DNA of 44,054 nt from Mariprofundus sp. (GTDB lineage: Bacteria > Pseudomonadota > Zetaproteobacteria > Mariprofundales > Mariprofundaceae). The notes under the pieces are model-generated. The model was not told where the DNA came from and did not search any database. It was given only the letters and a program-made list of their open reading frames with translations. Position 1 is the stretch's first letter; each line of letters opens with the position of its first letter. Shown here in pieces: positions 30,491 to 39,088 of the stretch. Location: assembly GCA_021772775.1 (NCBI GenBank), contig JAJFLH010000008.1, positions 1 through 44,054 on the forward strand, written 5' to 3'. A program made the position numbers and the translations under genes.

Positions 30491-30976
30491 TTAGTTAACA
30501 GTATATTCCGTGACTGTTTCATAACGCGCGATCTGATGTTTGATGGCGTCTCTATATTGCTCGATCTCAATCCAACTTATGGCTGAATCAAGTTCACTGT
30601 TTCGTATCACACGTATTTCATCCAGGTCGTCTTCTTTTGCTGCTGCCTGATAAATTTTGGCTAAACCAAAGCTGGCGGTACTTACGGCAACAATGGCAAG
30701 TTTGGCATTTTTTCGAAATTGCGCTTTTTTAATACGCTTAGCGGCTGAGAAAATCCCTTTAAAGGATAGCTCTTGGGTCGATATGTTTTTGCACATGGCA
30801 CATAAGGCAATCTTTCCTGGCCTGCTGTACTGGTCTTCCAGAAGCCTTGATATGAGGGCGTGCAATTGTTCATCGGTCACGCTCCCATGCAGGATAATTA
30901 ACATGAAATTATGCTCATTATAATGTTCGAAATGAATGCCTATGATCAGCTCCTGTCTAACTATTCCACCTATCAT
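30491..30976 (-). CDS. STAS/SpoIIAA-like protein
   Basis: A 161-aa protein. The layout is a first strand LIILHGSVTDEQL, a helix ALISRLLED, a middle strand KIALCAMCKNI, a basic segment AAKRIKKAQF, then KLAIVAVSTASFGLAKIYQAAA and RVIRNSELDSAISWI. This is the order of the SpoIIAA/STAS-like family found beside various regulators. The start is uncertain, since no strong ribosome-binding site precedes the ATG at 30976. The gene is on the minus strand upstream of the ABC-F gene and may share its transcript. Confidence 0.6.
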   Translation of the reverse strand: MIGGIVRQELIIGIHFEHYNEHNFMLIILHGSVTDEQLHALISRLLEDQYSRPGKIALCAMCKNISTQELSFKGIFSAAKRIKKAQFRKNAKLAIVAVSTASFGLAKIYQAAAKEDDLDEIRVIRNSELDSAISWIEIEQYRDAIKHQIARYETVTEYTVN

Positions 30977-30985
30977 TAATAGCAC

Positions 30986-31431: not shown

Positions 31432-33399
31432 ATGCAAGATCCGACTGCAAATGAGGCCTTAGACCTCTACACATACATTGTAGATGCCAGCGATGATTTC
31501 ATGAATATCATCGATAGCGATTATTGTTATGTAGCAGTCAGTGATCCTCTATGTAAGGCCTTTCAACGTTCACGCGAAACACTTATCGGCAAGAGTGTTG
31601 CAGAGATATGGGGAGATGCACTCTTTGAGGATGGTATCCGCGCCAGACTGGATATGTGTTTTGAAGGTAGTCTGATCGAACATGAATTTGAATTTTCTTT
31701 TTTAGGTAAGGGATTGCGCTGGTATAGCAGCAGATTTACGCCTTATCGCGATCAACAGGGCTCTGTCACACATGTGGTGGTTATCAGCCATGATATTACT
31801 GAACGTGTGAAATCCAGACGGGCTCTGCAGGAGAGTAAGGACAGGCTGGAGTTTCTACTTCATTCGGCACCGGTGATTATCTACAGTCGCGAAGCAGATG
31901 ATCCCTGGCCTATAAATTTCGTGAGTCAAAATATTCGTGATCACCTTGGGCATGATGAAGCAAAATTTCTGAATGAGGTCAACGCATGGCGAGACCAGCT
32001 GCACCCGGATGATAGGGCGGGCTTATATGAGGCGCTTAGCACGCTTTATCAGCATGGTCGCAGTAAGCTTGAATACCGTGTTCAGGATAATAATGGTAGC
32101 TGGCACTGGTTGTGTGACGAAATGGTGCTGGTAAAAGATGCTCAGGGTCATCCCTGTGAGATCGTAGGTTCCTGGATTGACGTTAGCGAGCGTATCGAAG
32201 CCGAGCAGGAGCGAAGGAAGCTACAGGCTCAGATGGAACATAATCAGCGTCTTGAATCGTTGGGTGTGTTGGCCGGTGGCATTGCACACGACTTTAATAA
32301 TATTCTTGCCGCGATTATGGGAAACGCGGCAATGGCGTCACTCGAATTGGATAACAGGCCGAAGAGTGCCAGTAAATATATCGAGAGCATCATGCTTTCC
32401 AGTGAAAAGGCCGCTGAACTATGCAGGCAGATGCTGGCCTATTCAGGTAAGGGTAGTTTTGATGTCAGGCCGATCAACCTCACCACTCTGGTTGAAGAGA
32501 CACACAGGTTGCTGGAGATATCAATCCCTAAAAATGTGAGCTTAAAGCTTGATTTGGATAAGGCATTGCCATCTATAGAGGCCGATGGTGCTCAGATGCA
32601 GCAAATTGTTATGAATCTGGTGATCAATGCCTCTGATGCGATTGCCGAGAAACTGGGCACGATTCGTGTCCAGACGGGAGTTATGCAGGTGGACAATGCA
32701 TACCTCACCAGCACTTATCTGGATGATGATTTGGCTGAAGGAGACTACGTTTACCTTGATGTGGCCGATACCGGATGTGGTATGGATAGACAGACGCAGG
32801 CGGGCATTTTTGAACCCTTTTTTACGACCAAGCCTACCGGGCGTGGATTGGGCATGAGTGCAGTGCTGGGCATTATACGCAGTCACTATGGTGCGATTAA
32901 GATAGATTCCAAAGTGGGTGAAGGCACGACATTCAGAATAGTGCTGCCGGTTAGTATTAGCAATCAGTCAGATCTGTCGAGTGAGTCATCAGATGAGGCT
33001 GAGCAGATGCGATGTCTGGGCACGGTCTTGTTGGTCGATGACGACGAAGATGTGCGTACTATGGAGGCTCAGATCTTGGAGAGCATGGGCTTTCGTGTAT
33101 TGGAAGCTGATGATGGTGAGAGTGCTATTGAGGTTTACCATCAATATGGCAAGGAAATTGCTGTAATCCTGCTGGATATGGCCATGCCTAATATGGATGG
33201 AATGACATGTTTCAGTGAGCTAAAACGGATGAATCGTGATGTGAAGGTGATTCTATCAAGTGGTTATAGCCAGGCAGATACAGGTGAATGGTGTGCTGGA
33301 TTGAGCGGTTTTATACAAAAGCCATACCGGCCCGAGATGCTGAAAAATATGTTACTAGAAGTGATAAATACGAGTGAGCGTGGTTCGAATATAGATTGA
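31432..33399 (+). CDS. Hybrid PAS histidine kinase with receiver domain
   Basis: A 655-aa sensor kinase with no clear TM segment, so probably cytosolic. Two PAS domains lie at about 10-125 and 135-260 (EFEFSFLGKGLRWYSSRFTPY, then HWLCDEMVLVKD), followed by a dimerisation domain with His286 in LAGGIAHDFNNIL, the ATPase boxes (QIVMNLVINASDAI, DTGCGMD, GRGLGMSAVLGIIRSH), and a receiver domain with Asp582 in LLDMAMPNMDG and the acid pair VDDDED. It heads a five-gene operon with a coiled-coil protein, an envelope protein, a GTPase and a cyclase; no separate DNA-binding regulator is present, so the phosphoryl target is unknown. Confidence 0.93.
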   Translation: MQDPTANEALDLYTYIVDASDDFMNIIDSDYCYVAVSDPLCKAFQRSRETLIGKSVAEIWGDALFEDGIRARLDMCFEGSLIEHEFEFSFLGKGLRWYSSRFTPYRDQQGSVTHVVVISHDITERVKSRRALQESKDRLEFLLHSAPVIIYSREADDPWPINFVSQNIRDHLGHDEAKFLNEVNAWRDQLHPDDRAGLYEALSTLYQHGRSKLEYRVQDNNGSWHWLCDEMVLVKDAQGHPCEIVGSWIDVSERIEAEQERRKLQAQMEHNQRLESLGVLAGGIAHDFNNILAAIMGNAAMASLELDNRPKSASKYIESIMLSSEKAAELCRQMLAYSGKGSFDVRPINLTTLVEETHRLLEISIPKNVSLKLDLDKALPSIEADGAQMQQIVMNLVINASDAIAEKLGTIRVQTGVMQVDNAYLTSTYLDDDLAEGDYVYLDVADTGCGMDRQTQAGIFEPFFTTKPTGRGLGMSAVLGIIRSHYGAIKIDSKVGEGTTFRIVLPVSISNQSDLSSESSDEAEQMRCLGTVLLVDDDEDVRTMEAQILESMGFRVLEADDGESAIEVYHQYGKEIAVILLDMAMPNMDGMTCFSELKRMNRDVKVILSSGYSQADTGEWCAGLSGFIQKPYRPEMLKNMLLEVINTSERGSNID

Positions 33400-33418
33400 T
33401 ATTACCTAGGGAGAGAAT

Positions 33419-33994
33419 ATGACAGCAAAATCCAATGATGCAGAAAACAACAGTACAGCGGCGGCAGGTGAACTCGCTGGGGTTGGTAACGTCGACCAGA
33501 TTAGAGATATTATTTTCGGATCACAAATGCGTGATTATGAGAGCCGCTTTCAGCGTTTGGAGGAGAGGCTTCTCAATGAATTAACAACGATGCGAAATGA
33601 GACAGGCAACCGTGTGGATTCACTGGAATCGTATATGCGAAGCGAATTGGATGCGCTGAATAATAGGTTGGGCAAAGAACGCGACGAACGTGAGGCTGAT
33701 GATAAAGAGTTGTCGGAAGACCTGAAGAAACTCTCCAAAGAGCTGCTGAGGAAACTGAGTCATCTGGATGATTCTGTTGCAAGCCAGAACCGTGATCTTC
33801 GTGAGCAGCTACTGACTCAGTCCAAATCACTAAGTGCCGATATAAACTCAACACGGGAGCAGTTAAATAGTGCCCTAGTACAGGCCACAAATGAGTTGCA
33901 GCACAGTAAAACAGACCGTGCTTCGCTGGCTGAACTATTATCTGAAATGGCACTGCGGTTGAAAGACGAATTTCCTCTGCCTTCCGGTAAGTGA
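33419..33994 (+). CDS. Coiled-coil protein of the GTPase/OmpA operon
   Basis: A 191-aa highly charged protein with heptad repeats over residues 40-165 (RFQRLEERLLNELTTM and many similar), consistent with a long parallel coiled coil. The N-terminus (DAENNSTAAAGELAGVG) is low-complexity; VDQIRDIIFGSQ at 25-36 precedes the coil. No signal peptide or TM. The adjacent gene (24 bp downstream) begins with a segment LKELLLGEE resembling DQIRDIIFGSQ in its role as a short helix, suggesting a paired docking site, which is inference. Good Shine-Dalgarno (GGGAGAG). Confidence 0.75.
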   Translation: MTAKSNDAENNSTAAAGELAGVGNVDQIRDIIFGSQMRDYESRFQRLEERLLNELTTMRNETGNRVDSLESYMRSELDALNNRLGKERDEREADDKELSEDLKKLSKELLRKLSHLDDSVASQNRDLREQLLTQSKSLSADINSTREQLNSALVQATNELQHSKTDRASLAELLSEMALRLKDEFPLPSGK

Positions 33995-34018
33995 ATCGAG
34001 GAGTAGCTGCGTCAGCAG

Positions 34019-36682
34019 ATGTCTGATCAGCAGGTGAAAAACAGCGATGGGGATGATTCGTGCAAGCAGAATGGTGATTTTAATCATCTGAAAGAGTTGC
34101 TGCTGGGTGAAGAGTCCCGCCAGATCGCAGTTTTAGAAGAACATTTGGAAAATCCCGAGTTACATGCCGCAGATATGGGGCGTGTATTGCATAAGGCTGT
34201 GCAGATCAATCAGCAGCAGGAGCCGGGAGCACTGGCCGATGCTCTGGCTCCAGCAGTTGAGTCATCATTGTATGCTTCGGTGCGTAAGGATCCCGATAGC
34301 CTTGGTGATGCACTATTCCCCGTCATGGCACCGGCAATCAGGAAATCGATTATCTCCATTATGCACGGTATGGTGCAGTCGCTAAACCATATGTTGGAAA
34401 ATTCATTCAGCTTTCAGGGTTTGAAGTGGCGACTGGAGTCGATGCATACGGGTAAGTCCTTCGCCGAGATTGTCATGCTGCATACGCTGGCCTATCGCGT
34501 TGAGCAGGTCTTTCTGATTCATAAGGCGGATGGGCTGCTGTTACAGCATGTCAGTTTTATGGAGGAAGATACGCAAAATGCGGATTTGGTCTCCAGTATG
34601 TTGACCGCTATTCAGGACTTTGTACGGGACTCATTTCAGGTCGAGGCAAACGACTCCATAGAAAAACTGAGTATGGGTAATATGGTAGTCCACATTGAAG
34701 CGGGCTCCAAAATTGTGTTGGCCGCAGTTGTACGTGGTAATGCACCGGCCGAATTTACCGAAACGTTGCAGCAACGGTGCGAATTGATTCACAAACAGAT
34801 GGCTGGGGCGCTGGAGGCCTTTGATGGCGATGCATCGGTGTTTAATGCGGTGCGCCCTGATATGGAATCGTGTCTGCTGTCGCAAACGGCATCCACACCG
34901 ACAGGCTCTAATCTCAAGGCCAAGCTGATGCTCTCTGCGCTGGCACTGGCACTGGTCGGCTGGTCGGTTTGGGGTTGGTATCAGGCAGACCGCGAACAGA
35001 AGCTGATACGGGCACTCGATGCCCTACCTGGTTTTGTTGTGATTCGTAGTGGAGATGAGCAGGGCGCTCTACTTATTGCAGGTTTGCGTGATCCGCTTGC
35101 AGATAAACCGGATAAGTTGCTGCATCAATATGGATTCTCTAATGATGATGTGAGATTGATCTGGACACCCTATCAGTCGCTGGAGCGGGCGATGCAAATT
35201 CGCCGGGCTAGAGCAGTGCTCAAGCCTGCTGCAAAGACACGGCTCAACATTGATCAGAGTAAATTAATTGTCAGTGGTGTTGCGCAGAGCTCATGGCTTG
35301 AGCGGGCCAGAGCCTTACAGCCAGCTCTGCCTGGCATTAGCGAGATTCGCAGTGATCAGTTGGTGCTCAGCGATTCGCCTGAATATCTACTGCAGGAGGC
35401 GATCAAACAGTTGCAGCCACCGACAACAGTTCGCTTGAGTATCTCGGGTGAGACACTGATAGCTAAGGGCAAGGCACCAGACGCATGGCTGAAAAAGGCC
35501 GCAATCGTGATGAATATTGTGCCAGGCATTAAGGTTTATGATGGCTCGGCGATGATCAATATGGAGGCCGATGACTATCTGTTAGCCGAATCTGTCAGGC
35601 TGCTTAATCCACCCTCATCGGCTCGATTACATGTTTATCAGGGCATTCTCGCTGCCAGCGGAAAGGCCTCACAGCAATGGGTTGAGAGGACTGCTTCGGC
35701 AGCTGCTCTTGTTCCCGGCATCAAGGCATATGATGATTCGAAGCTGGTAAATACGCAGTCAGATGTATATCTGTTAAGCGAATCTATTCGTCTGCTTAAG
35801 CCACCATCATCGGTGCGACTAACTGTTGATCAGGGTATTCTAATTGCCACAGGTAAAGCTTCGTCCCGATGGGTGAAAAAAGCATCCAGGGCACTGCATA
35901 TCGTCGATGGTATCAATGGCTATGATTATTCTAATTTGGTGAATACGCGCTCAAATGCGTATCTGTTAAGCCAGGCGAATCGTTTGCTCAAGCCGCCATC
36001 ATCGGTTCGACTGAGCGTTCGGCGGGGTAGGCTCGCCGCCAAAGGTGTGGCATCGACGAGATGGATTAATAATGCCAGAAAGCGGGTAAAAAGAATCGCA
36101 GGTATAAGATCCTTTGATACGAACGAGTTAATCGATGTCGGATCGAATGCATACCTTTTGGCTAAGATAAAGCGCGAGCTGCAGCCGCCAGCAACAGTGA
36201 CCTTAAAACTGAATAAACGTGAACTCATCATATCCGGTATCGCTACAACGGCCTGGGCACAAAGGATCGGTAAATTGATCCTTCATATTGATGGTGTGGA
36301 TACGGTGTGGCAGCAGGATCTGGTGGTGATAGAGAAGGCTCTAGCGACGCTGAAAAGAATGTTACTGAATGCAGATTTACGATTTGTGGCCAATACGAGC
36401 CAGTTGATGGATGGTGAAACATCCAAGATTCAACGTTTGGCCAAGCAACTGATGAAACAGGCTGACTTGATGCGCATCACGCAAGCCCATGTGCAGATTA
36501 CTGGCTATTCAGGGCTTTTGGGGGAGCAGGCTGAAGTGCTGGCGCTGAGCAGAGCGGAAATGGTAAAACGCGAATTGATGAAACATGGTTTAACATCTAA
36601 GCGGGTGAAGACCAGTGGTCAGAAGACGCAGAATGAGGGTTGGGCTGCACGTTTAGATCTGGTTTGGAGGGCTTTACCATGA
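34019..36682 (+). CDS. Single-pass envelope protein with six 64-aa repeats and OmpA-like end
   Basis: An 887-aa protein. Residues 1-295 are cytoplasmic, with GMVQSLNHMLENSFSF and then YRVEQVFLIHKADGLLLQHV and DFVRDSFQVE, an alpha/beta layout like roadblock/longin domains that bind small GTPases. One TM helix lies at about 301-322 (LMLSALALALVGWSVWGWY). Residues 400-763 are six tandem 64-residue repeats with core L(K/Q/N)PP(S/A)(S/T)xRL...GILxASG and a following W-containing helix. The C-terminus (about 785-887) resembles OmpA (QITGYSGLLGEQAEVLALS, AEMVKRELMKHGL) but lacks the Asp and one Arg that bind diaminopimelate. The gene overlaps the GTPase gene (ATGA). Confidence 0.82.
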   Translation: MSDQQVKNSDGDDSCKQNGDFNHLKELLLGEESRQIAVLEEHLENPELHAADMGRVLHKAVQINQQQEPGALADALAPAVESSLYASVRKDPDSLGDALFPVMAPAIRKSIISIMHGMVQSLNHMLENSFSFQGLKWRLESMHTGKSFAEIVMLHTLAYRVEQVFLIHKADGLLLQHVSFMEEDTQNADLVSSMLTAIQDFVRDSFQVEANDSIEKLSMGNMVVHIEAGSKIVLAAVVRGNAPAEFTETLQQRCELIHKQMAGALEAFDGDASVFNAVRPDMESCLLSQTASTPTGSNLKAKLMLSALALALVGWSVWGWYQADREQKLIRALDALPGFVVIRSGDEQGALLIAGLRDPLADKPDKLLHQYGFSNDDVRLIWTPYQSLERAMQIRRARAVLKPAAKTRLNIDQSKLIVSGVAQSSWLERARALQPALPGISEIRSDQLVLSDSPEYLLQEAIKQLQPPTTVRLSISGETLIAKGKAPDAWLKKAAIVMNIVPGIKVYDGSAMINMEADDYLLAESVRLLNPPSSARLHVYQGILAASGKASQQWVERTASAAALVPGIKAYDDSKLVNTQSDVYLLSESIRLLKPPSSVRLTVDQGILIATGKASSRWVKKASRALHIVDGINGYDYSNLVNTRSNAYLLSQANRLLKPPSSVRLSVRRGRLAAKGVASTRWINNARKRVKRIAGIRSFDTNELIDVGSNAYLLAKIKRELQPPATVTLKLNKRELIISGIATTAWAQRIGKLILHIDGVDTVWQQDLVVIEKALATLKRMLLNADLRFVANTSQLMDGETSKIQRLAKQLMKQADLMRITQAHVQITGYSGLLGEQAEVLALSRAEMVKRELMKHGLTSKRVKTSGQKTQNEGWAARLDLVWRALP

Positions 36683-37182
36683 GTCGGATATTACAAAAAA
36701 AGGTCTGTTTACTGGGTGCCTTCGCGGTTGGAAAGACCAGTTTGGTTAGCCGTTTTGTGAACGGTATTTTTTCCGATAAATATCTCTCTACGATGGGCGT
36801 TAAAATAGACCGGAAAAGCCTGCAACTTGATGATGTGACCGTGAATATGATGCTGTGGGATGTACATGGTGAGGAGTCCGTTAAGAAGGTGCCCGCCGCC
36901 TATATGCGAGGTTCAGCGGCTTATCTACTGGTCATTGATGGCACACGTAGTGCAACTGTGGATACTGCTCGTGAGCTGCATGCGCGCATGCGTGCTGAAG
37001 TGGGCGATGTTCCTTTTGTGGTGTTGTTGAACAAGGTGGATCTTAAAGATGAATGGGAACTCTCTGATGCGGATGTGGCAACGATTCGTGAAGAGGGCTG
37101 GGAGTGTCTCATGACAAGTGCTTGCACAGGCGAGAATGTGGAGGCGGCATTTATACGTCTGGCCGATCAAATGATCGCGTGA
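36679..37182 (+). CDS. Ras/Rab-like small GTPase
   Basis: A 167-aa cytosolic GTPase. P-loop GAFAVGKT (13-20), switch I Thr38 in STMGV, switch II WDVHGEE (61-66), NKVD (118-121) and TSA (146-148). Family knowledge: in Ras/Rab the DxxGQ glutamine drives hydrolysis; here it is Glu65, so intrinsic turnover may be low and a partner may supply the missing chemistry. No C-terminal lipidation site is visible. The start ATG overlaps the previous stop, tying it to the envelope protein; a frame opening at 36640 would lie within that gene. The 2-bp gap to the cyclase supports a shared function. Confidence 0.93.
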   Translation: MSRILQKKVCLLGAFAVGKTSLVSRFVNGIFSDKYLSTMGVKIDRKSLQLDDVTVNMMLWDVHGEESVKKVPAAYMRGSAAYLLVIDGTRSATVDTARELHARMRAEVGDVPFVVLLNKVDLKDEWELSDADVATIREEGWECLMTSACTGENVEAAFIRLADQMIA

Positions 37183-37184
37183 AC

Positions 37185-38195
37185 ATGCCGGAGCCATTGC
37201 TCAACTATCTGGCGGAGATGCAGATTTATCGGCTCTCCCCAGCCTGGGCAAAGCTGGATGAGGCATGTCACTGTATAGTCGAGTGTGGCGGTGACTGGAG
37301 TAATTTTGATGATGATATTGCAGTGCATCGGGGCGCTGTAGTTGAAGAGAGTTTTATTTATCTCTGTGGTCAGAGTTTTGATGAACCTTTCCTGCTGCCT
37401 CAAATGGAGTTCAAAGAGAACCGCTTTACGAATGTCCATTTTTTTCGGGCGGAGAGTATTGCCTGGTTGCTGTTTTTGGATGTAACAGAACAGACTTTAA
37501 TGCAGCAGTTACAGCAGCAGAATGCCAATGAGTTGAGTCTGCTGCGTGACCAGCAGCGCAGGGTCTTGGATCGTTATGTCGGCGGTGCTGTTACTGAGCG
37601 CAGTATTGAGGGGCGTTTAACCTTTGATGCGGCTGGTGAGCGGCGCAATATATCTACCATGTTTATCGATCTGCGCAGTTTTACGATATTCAATCAAAAG
37701 TATGATCCACAGCATGTAATGGATGTATTGAATCAGTATATGAATAAGATGCTACCGCCCATTCTCGATGAATTTGGTCTGGTCGACAAAATCACCGGCG
37801 ATGGTGCGATGACAGTTTTTGGTGTACTCAATGAACAGGAAGATAGTGCTCTTTTAGCTTTTCGCGCGGCACTGCGTATTCAGCGTGAGATCTCAACGAT
37901 GAATGATCTGCGTCGTCAGCAGGGGGATTACATCATGGACGTTGGCATAGGCATTGGTAGTGGTGAAGCTGTGTTGGGTATTCTTGGTGCCCATGATCGT
38001 CGTGCATTTACAGTGATTGGGCCACATGTGAATTTAGCCGCCCGACTTGAAGGTGAAGCTAAAGGTGGTGAAATTCTTGCAGATGAAACAACTTTTCTGA
38101 CGGTTCAACATCTCATTGATAGTCATGAATGCAGATCTATTGAGTTGAAAGGAATCGGTGCAAGCCAAGTCTACAATTTACGCTATTCGAAATAG
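37185..38195 (+). CDS. Class III adenylate/guanylate cyclase
   Basis: A 336-aa protein: N-terminal PAS-like region (residues 20-105, ending WLLFLDVTEQ), a short coiled coil with QQQNANELSLLRDQQRR, then the cyclase catalytic domain. Metal-binding Asp162 (MFIDLRSFT) and Asp206 (KITGDGAMTVF), the purine-binding Lys202, and the NLAARLEGE segment near the C-terminus are present. Adenylate versus guanylate specificity cannot be decided by eye. The ATG at 37185 is chosen; a GTG at 37179 would overlap the GTPase stop. The last gene of the operon; an HD protein faces it. Confidence 0.92.
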   Translation: MPEPLLNYLAEMQIYRLSPAWAKLDEACHCIVECGGDWSNFDDDIAVHRGAVVEESFIYLCGQSFDEPFLLPQMEFKENRFTNVHFFRAESIAWLLFLDVTEQTLMQQLQQQNANELSLLRDQQRRVLDRYVGGAVTERSIEGRLTFDAAGERRNISTMFIDLRSFTIFNQKYDPQHVMDVLNQYMNKMLPPILDEFGLVDKITGDGAMTVFGVLNEQEDSALLAFRAALRIQREISTMNDLRRQQGDYIMDVGIGIGSGEAVLGILGAHDRRAFTVIGPHVNLAARLEGEAKGGEILADETTFLTVQHLIDSHECRSIELKGIGASQVYNLRYSK

Positions 38196-38233
38196 GCAGA
38201 GTGCCATAAAGAGCTTTAATGTATGCGGTTTAT

Positions 38234-39088
38234 TCAGTCGTTGTTAGGTGATGGAGCATCAAGATGTTCAACGCTGAATACATGGGCATGTAAATTAGCA
38301 ATCCACTGACGCCCATCCTGTGTCGCTTTCAGATATGGCATGACCGGTTCGATATGTGGATTGGCTTGGTTCCAATAAAAACCCGAATAATTGTGGCGCA
38401 GATCCCAGGGGGTTTCATAATTAAATTTTTTGTTCCAGCCAAGCTGCTCAAACTCAAAAAAGAGAGCAGGAATTTTGTTTAAATAACTTGGATCACCCAG
38501 TTGTCCCAGCATATCGGCTGCACGCACCAGCACACCTAATCCATCCGGATCATCCGGCACTTCATCAGCGGGAACAGGAAAGCGGGTCATCTCAATATAT
38601 CTGGCAATACGATCGACATCGATGTTGCGGCTGTTGCGGCCAAAGCGCTCCCGAACAAAGACCTTTCCCCTATCCACATGGTAGGGCGTTAATTGTGCAT
38701 CTGTTGCGGTTTCAGGTAACTCAATGCTTTCACCAGATTCAGAAATGACAAAGTTATTACCTGAATCAGCCCGGCAAATACCTTTGCAGTAGCCGATATC
38801 GTGAAAGAGCATGGCCAGTGTGCAGTGCAGCCAGTCTTCAGCCGAGATGCCACCATGAATAAGTTGTTTGCCGTGTAAAATGGATTGTCCGGCAACGGTT
38901 ACCATTACGGTATGTTCAAGGTCATGATAAAGCATATCACTGTTTGCAATATTCTCTAATGAGAGGCGTGCTGCCCAGGATGCAACCTCGCCATAAGGGA
39001 TTTCCGTATCACCATAGTTGAGATGGTAATATTGTTCAAGCTGGGAACAAAAAGCGTCAATAACAAGTGATTCGGGGCTAAGTAACAT
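38234..39088 (-). CDS. HD-domain phosphohydrolase, possible cyclic-nucleotide phosphodiesterase
   Basis: A 284-aa protein with HD metal ligands at His55/His59 (YHDLEHTVMV) and His96-Asp97 (LFHDIGYCKG). The first motif, YHxxxH, matches the start of the HNxxH of class I cyclic-nucleotide phosphodiesterases rather than a generic HD domain. The ATG at 39088 is chosen with CAGGA upstream; a longer TTG start is less likely. It ends 39 bp from the stop of the cyclase, convergent with it, so a role in degrading its product is attractive but inferred. Confidence 0.75.
   Translation of the reverse strand: MLLSPESLVIDAFCSQLEQYYHLNYGDTEIPYGEVASWAARLSLENIANSDMLYHDLEHTVMVTVAGQSILHGKQLIHGGISAEDWLHCTLAMLFHDIGYCKGICRADSGNNFVISESGESIELPETATDAQLTPYHVDRGKVFVRERFGRNSRNIDVDRIARYIEMTRFPVPADEVPDDPDGLGVLVRAADMLGQLGDPSYLNKIPALFFEFEQLGWNKKFNYETPWDLRHNYSGFYWNQANPHIEPVMPYLKATQDGRQWIANLHAHVFSVEHLDAPSPNND

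Follow-up and report, generated by a model that had tools for sequence, protein, structure and literature searches.

The window, the whole 44,054-nucleotide stretch of DNA that was analysed, is contig C38 of the genome (approximately 3.1 Mb) of a Mariprofundus sp. All six genes of the locus were found where an earlier, sequence-only reading of this DNA had placed them:

31432-33399, plus strand: hybrid histidine kinase (PAS-PAS-HisKA-HATPase-REC by domain search), an optional neighbour outside the core.
33419-33994, plus strand: coiled-coil cytoplasmic protein of 191 aa; its gene opens the core and in relatives directly precedes the envelope gene.
34019-36682, plus strand: envelope protein of 887 aa, with a cytosolic N-terminal region, one transmembrane (TM) helix, six repeats and an OmpA domain.
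34460-34816, plus strand: probable longin/roadblock-type domain, envelope residues about 148-266 (low-confidence fold prediction, Foldseek and profile score).
34913-34981, plus strand: predicted TM helix, envelope residues about 299-321 (from the sequence itself, with the hydropathy maximum at residue 299).
35210-36337, plus strand: six tandem repeats of approximately 64 aa, envelope residues 398-773, predicted to be periplasmic.
36383-36625, plus strand: OmpA domain of the peptidoglycan-binding type, envelope residues 789-869 (Pfam PF00691, 2.4e-6).
36679-37182, plus strand: Rup-type small GTPase of the Ras superfamily (167 aa) with intact G1, G3, G4 and G5 motifs.
37185-38195, plus strand: class III cyclase of 336 aa, the output enzyme, a predicted adenylate cyclase (Pfam PF00211, 8.5e-19, and catalytic residues).
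37185-37589, plus strand: output-protein N-terminal domain (approximately residues 1-135), in which the invariant Gln112 is encoded at 37518-37520.
38234-39088, minus strand (start at 39088 or 39106): HD-domain protein, Npun_R2479-like (NF045583, 352 bits), an optional neighbour.

Domain searches bore out the assignments previously made for the kinase, the GTPase (Pfam Ras, 2e-29) and the cyclase, and also detected the OmpA domain. Spacings between the genes from kinase to cyclase are 19, 24, -4 and +2 bp, as had been claimed, the -4 bp representing an ATGA overlap that joins the envelope and GTPase genes; the convergent gap between the cyclase and HD genes is 38 bp and not the 39 bp given earlier. 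Divergent from the kinase gene lies a gene for a SpoIIAA-like protein (30491-30985, minus strand), which scored just under the Pfam cut-off. The core of the locus consists of four genes (33419-38195), encoding the coiled-coil protein, the TM/OmpA envelope protein, the small GTPase and the class III cyclase.

In a survey of 78 zetaproteobacterial genomes, the GTPase was present in 30, which together contained 31 core loci. One of these loci is a second copy (L068:9867-10208, G032:C20) that is probably decayed, because several internal stop codons interrupt its GTPase. The envelope gene was located directly 5' of the GTPase gene, and the cyclase gene directly 3' of it, in 31/31 loci, while the coiled-coil gene directly preceded the envelope gene in all 25 loci for which the contig was long enough. 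A search at the phylum level (397 genomes), with the GTPase as sole query, yielded 15 genomes outside the class. In each of these 15 GTPase-selected loci, coiled coil and envelope protein were encoded in the same order. An output enzyme was found in 14 of them, L088 having lost its output gene, and was a cyclase in six, a GGDEF-EAL protein in five, a hybrid histidine kinase in two and an HD-GYP protein in one. When a second class was searched with the envelope domain, four more complete systems were found, whose outputs were a cyclase, two histidine kinases and one unclassified protein; two further loci came up in this search, one at the end of its contig and the other lacking a GTPase. Second-messenger enzymes and histidine kinases made up the output in nearly every locus. 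Mapped on the GTPase tree, output type required five changes, the minimum possible, against a mean of 13.7 after shuffling.

These results support the grouping of the GTPase with the envelope protein and the cyclase that the sequence-only reading had proposed. That reading had named rare co-occurrence in other genomes as the result that would speak against the link; the envelope protein was found to adjoin the GTPase in all 31 + 15 loci. Since the core order recurs in related loci, the four-gene arrangement is not a product of chance. Among the readable related loci, exceptions to this order were found in L066 and L067 (second GTPase copies), L088 (without output) and L150 (without GTPase). 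In L146:225-5680 and L150:4127-9393, two envelope-type proteins flank the coiled-coil gene, and in L150 no nearby GTPase was found.

Alignment of the GTPase with its relatives showed conservation of the G1, G3, G4 and G5 residues. Its best sequence match in the PDB was Rab23 (4.6e-23), and the earlier term 'Rab-like' holds as a description of fold similarity but not beyond it. The G3 motif, WDVHGEE, lacks the catalytic Gln: Glu65 (36871-36873) occupies the position of Ras Gln61, and at position 65 Gln was observed in 0/47 distinct sequences, which have Glu, Ile, Val, Ala, Lys or Arg instead. An invariant Gln was found in the output proteins. Gln112 of the window cyclase was kept in 44/44 output proteins that reach this column, across four enzyme classes, and was the sole exceptionless column when 45 output N-terminal regions were aligned, one row being too short to reach it. 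A structural model of the N-terminal domain of the cyclase had a mean pLDDT of 41, with only the long helix 102-135 predicted at moderate confidence. The same Gln-bearing domain occurs in the HD-GYP proteins encoded directly after a second Rup GTPase in two Mariprofundus genomes (L066:8498-10050, L067:9631-11255); the second GTPase of L067 has no adjacent envelope or coiled-coil gene, and L066 ends near a contig end.

Neighbourhoods of this type were defined as those of Group 1 Rup GTPases in a survey of prokaryotic Ras-superfamily GTPases (Wuichet and Sogaard-Andersen, 2014; PMC4316618). They comprise a coiled-coil gene, a gene for a conserved unknown domain, often with a TM helix and an OmpA domain, the GTPase gene and a signalling output, typically a GGDEF/EAL protein or histidine kinase; the GTPase lacks the catalytic Gln and the N-terminal region of the output carries an invariant one (PMC4316618). 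By sequence criteria, the core was assigned to Group 1 Rup because its gene content and order, the missing Gln in G3 and the invariant output Gln all fit this description. The system had previously been called little described. Its type has, however, been known since 2014, and what appears to be new relative to that account is the output by a class III adenylate cyclase, a type unnamed there, the output by an HD-GYP protein, and a probable longin/roadblock fold in the domain then called unknown. A further difference is the array of 64-aa repeats in the envelope protein, as no repeats are mentioned in the 2014 text. A literature search, to which most subscription journals were inaccessible, returned no later experimental work on Rup GTPases.

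Class IIIb adenylate cyclases are recognized by two metal-binding Asp residues, a Lys and a Thr for ATP, and an Asn and an Arg for the transition state. Metal-binding Asp162/Asp206 and transition-state Asn283/Arg287 were present in 35/35 cyclase sequences and Lys202 in 34/35; as the second base-recognition residue, 27 sequences have Thr, five have Asp and three have Ser. The window enzyme has the full class IIIb adenylate cyclase set (D162, D206, K202, T276, N283 and R287). Because its catalytic residues fit the established rules, it is predicted to be a class IIIb adenylate cyclase, while the cyclases of one gammaproteobacterial group are predicted to be adenylate cyclases of class IIIa. Nine class III cyclase domains are encoded in the genome, so that the window cyclase would be one among several. 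In addition, 14 cNMP-binding stretches were found, one of them Crp-like with a canonical FGE...RSA phosphate-binding motif, a cyclic-nucleotide repertoire that is rich for an iron oxidiser.

Residues 1-298 of the envelope protein are predicted to be cytosolic and are followed by the single TM helix, the repeats (two to six copies in relatives) and the OmpA domain. The cytosolic domain could be aligned across 33 loci; among 33 relatives, none had a domain that Pfam or NCBIfam recognized, and a profile search against PDB sequences gave no meaningful match. In a structure prediction built from four close sequences only (mean pLDDT 47, about 60 in the relevant part), residues 148-266 showed, at this low confidence, the element order a-b-b-a-b-b-a of roadblock and longin domains. 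Almost all of the top 50 Foldseek matches of this model in the PDB belonged to the longin/roadblock superfamily (best E 8e-3), among them AP-complex mu and sigma chains, zeta-COP, the Ragulator and Ego3 roadblocks, Sec22b (TM-score 0.66 by target), TRAPP, Ykt6 and MglB. As a negative control, a fold search with the likewise low-confidence model of the cyclase N-terminal domain gave no sensible match (best E 2.0). An earlier, broader profile comparison with roadblock proteins had given a weak signal (P 0.047). Narrowing to the domain and use of shuffled controls made it clearer, yet still modest: against same-class roadblock proteins the domain scored 21.4, with a maximum of 18.0 among 200 column-shuffled controls, and the two profiles aligned in a matching b-b-a register. 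Together, model and profiles suggest that envelope residues about 148-266 are likely to adopt a longin/roadblock-type fold, the usual docking platform of small GTPases.

Beyond the observed gene linkage, GTPase motifs, invariant output Gln and domain layout of the envelope protein, we infer a mechanism in which the Ras-like GTPase is the probable connection between a membrane protein anchored in the cell wall and a cAMP-producing enzyme. The OmpA domain would serve as the peptidoglycan anchor of the envelope protein, whose repeats would either set the reach across the periplasm or serve as a sensor. At the inner membrane, the longin/roadblock-like cytosolic domain would dock the GTPase, with the coiled-coil protein as a putative scaffold. 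GTP-bound Rup would then engage the N-terminal domain of the cyclase, whose predicted Gln112-bearing helix runs into the catalytic domain, and this engagement would switch cAMP synthesis. Wuichet and Sogaard-Andersen proposed that the invariant output Gln acts as a GAP in trans (PMC4316618). Applied to the window, Gln112 would complete the active site of the GTPase in trans, and the output enzyme would therefore also be the GAP that ends the signal. The cAMP could be read by the Crp-like protein encoded elsewhere in the genome. We consider it likely that the core represents a cassette of the Group 1 Rup kind whose output is an adenylate cyclase and that it works in this manner.

The position of the invariant Gln, in the enzyme and not in the GTPase, also accommodates the opposite direction of signalling, since the enzyme would then regulate the GTPase. 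Cyclase or kinase proteins would sense and act as Rup GAPs, and Rup would act on the envelope protein, for example in wall attachment or polarity. The GTPase of the actinobacterial conservon is likewise thought to be the output (PMC4316618). However, the enzyme varies by lineage while GTPase, coiled coil and envelope protein stay, a pattern that looks like a single input module fitted to different effectors, and we regard this reversed direction as unlikely.

The sequence-only reading had included the hybrid kinase and the HD protein in one system with the core. In a six-gene pathway of that kind, the kinase would sense, the cyclase would make the messenger and the HD protein would degrade it. 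The kinase gene is indeed co-oriented with the core across a gap of 19 bp, and in L037, L038 and L039, its closest relatives, both flanking genes also lie close to the core, but these are the only other loci with the kinase directly upstream: in 27/30 other zetaproteobacterial loci it is not beside the core. The HD gene adjoins the cyclase gene only in the window and L037; in L038 and L039 its position has shifted to the upstream side of the kinase gene. It is present in no more than 7 of the 78 genomes, where it is otherwise located on other contigs or, in G008, occurs without any Rup system. Nor did the proposed cyclic-nucleotide phosphodiesterase activity find support. The HD protein scored 352 bits against NCBIfam NF045583 (Npun_R2479 HD metalloprotein; cut-off 400), which makes it a close relative and not a member of a family that has no activity or function on record, and domain and sequence searches gave neither a Pfam match nor a PDB relative. 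Neighbourhood and occurrence thus ruled out kinase and HD gene as core members; they are lineage-specific neighbours and not part of the system, and a six-gene pathway is very improbable. That the core genes are mere co-transcribed neighbours without shared function is disfavoured and deserves almost no credence, as gene order is kept across distant families while the flanks change.

For the preferred reading, in which the envelope protein signals through Rup to the cyclase, the nearest parallels outside Group 1 Rup are found in eukaryotic Rab, Rag and Arf systems and in bacterial MglA/MglB pairs and actinobacterial conservons. With the former, the window shares a Ras-superfamily GTPase and a predicted partner fold that matches the Ragulator, TRAPP, AP and COPI platforms; it differs in the lack of a sequence-level match, in its bacterial envelope setting and in the absence of vesicle traffic. 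On balance, and with somewhat less assurance than for the cassette itself, we favour the view that the Group 1 Rup envelope protein serves a Ras-like GTPase as a transmembrane receptor of the longin/roadblock type, anchored to peptidoglycan. Such a receptor would be the equivalent, at the bacterial cell wall, of the eukaryotic GTPase platforms, and a shared adaptor domain with the Gln would connect it to interchangeable second-messenger enzymes, here an adenylate cyclase. If the longin/roadblock assignment is true, it would account for the contact between GTPase and membrane protein and would place the pairing of GTPase and longin/roadblock domain in envelope signalling. The exchange of outputs (cAMP, c-di-GMP and phosphotransfer) on a single domain with the Gln would point to a general adaptor between GTPase and messenger. 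The locus offers a compact test case that combines a single GTPase with a single wall-anchored partner of probable GTPase-docking fold and an enzyme whose cAMP product is easily read out.

MglA/MglB systems, in which MglB is a roadblock GAP, and conservons resemble the window in that a small bacterial GTPase works with signalling enzymes and with a partner of roadblock type, which in the window is a probable one. MglB is small and soluble, whereas the roadblock-like domain of the window would be fused to a TM helix and an OmpA anchor, and the window GTPase, unlike those of MglA/MglB systems and conservons, belongs to the Rup family. Domain searches gave no roadblock family match at the GTPase locus, which lacks the adjacent MglB/roadblock gene that serves as a criterion for the MglA family. 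Elsewhere in the same genome (G000:C16:22495-24070, L002), genes for a Ras-like GTPase and a roadblock protein lie approximately 1 kb from each other; the two proteins are probably an MglB/MglA pair that does not belong to the Rup system.
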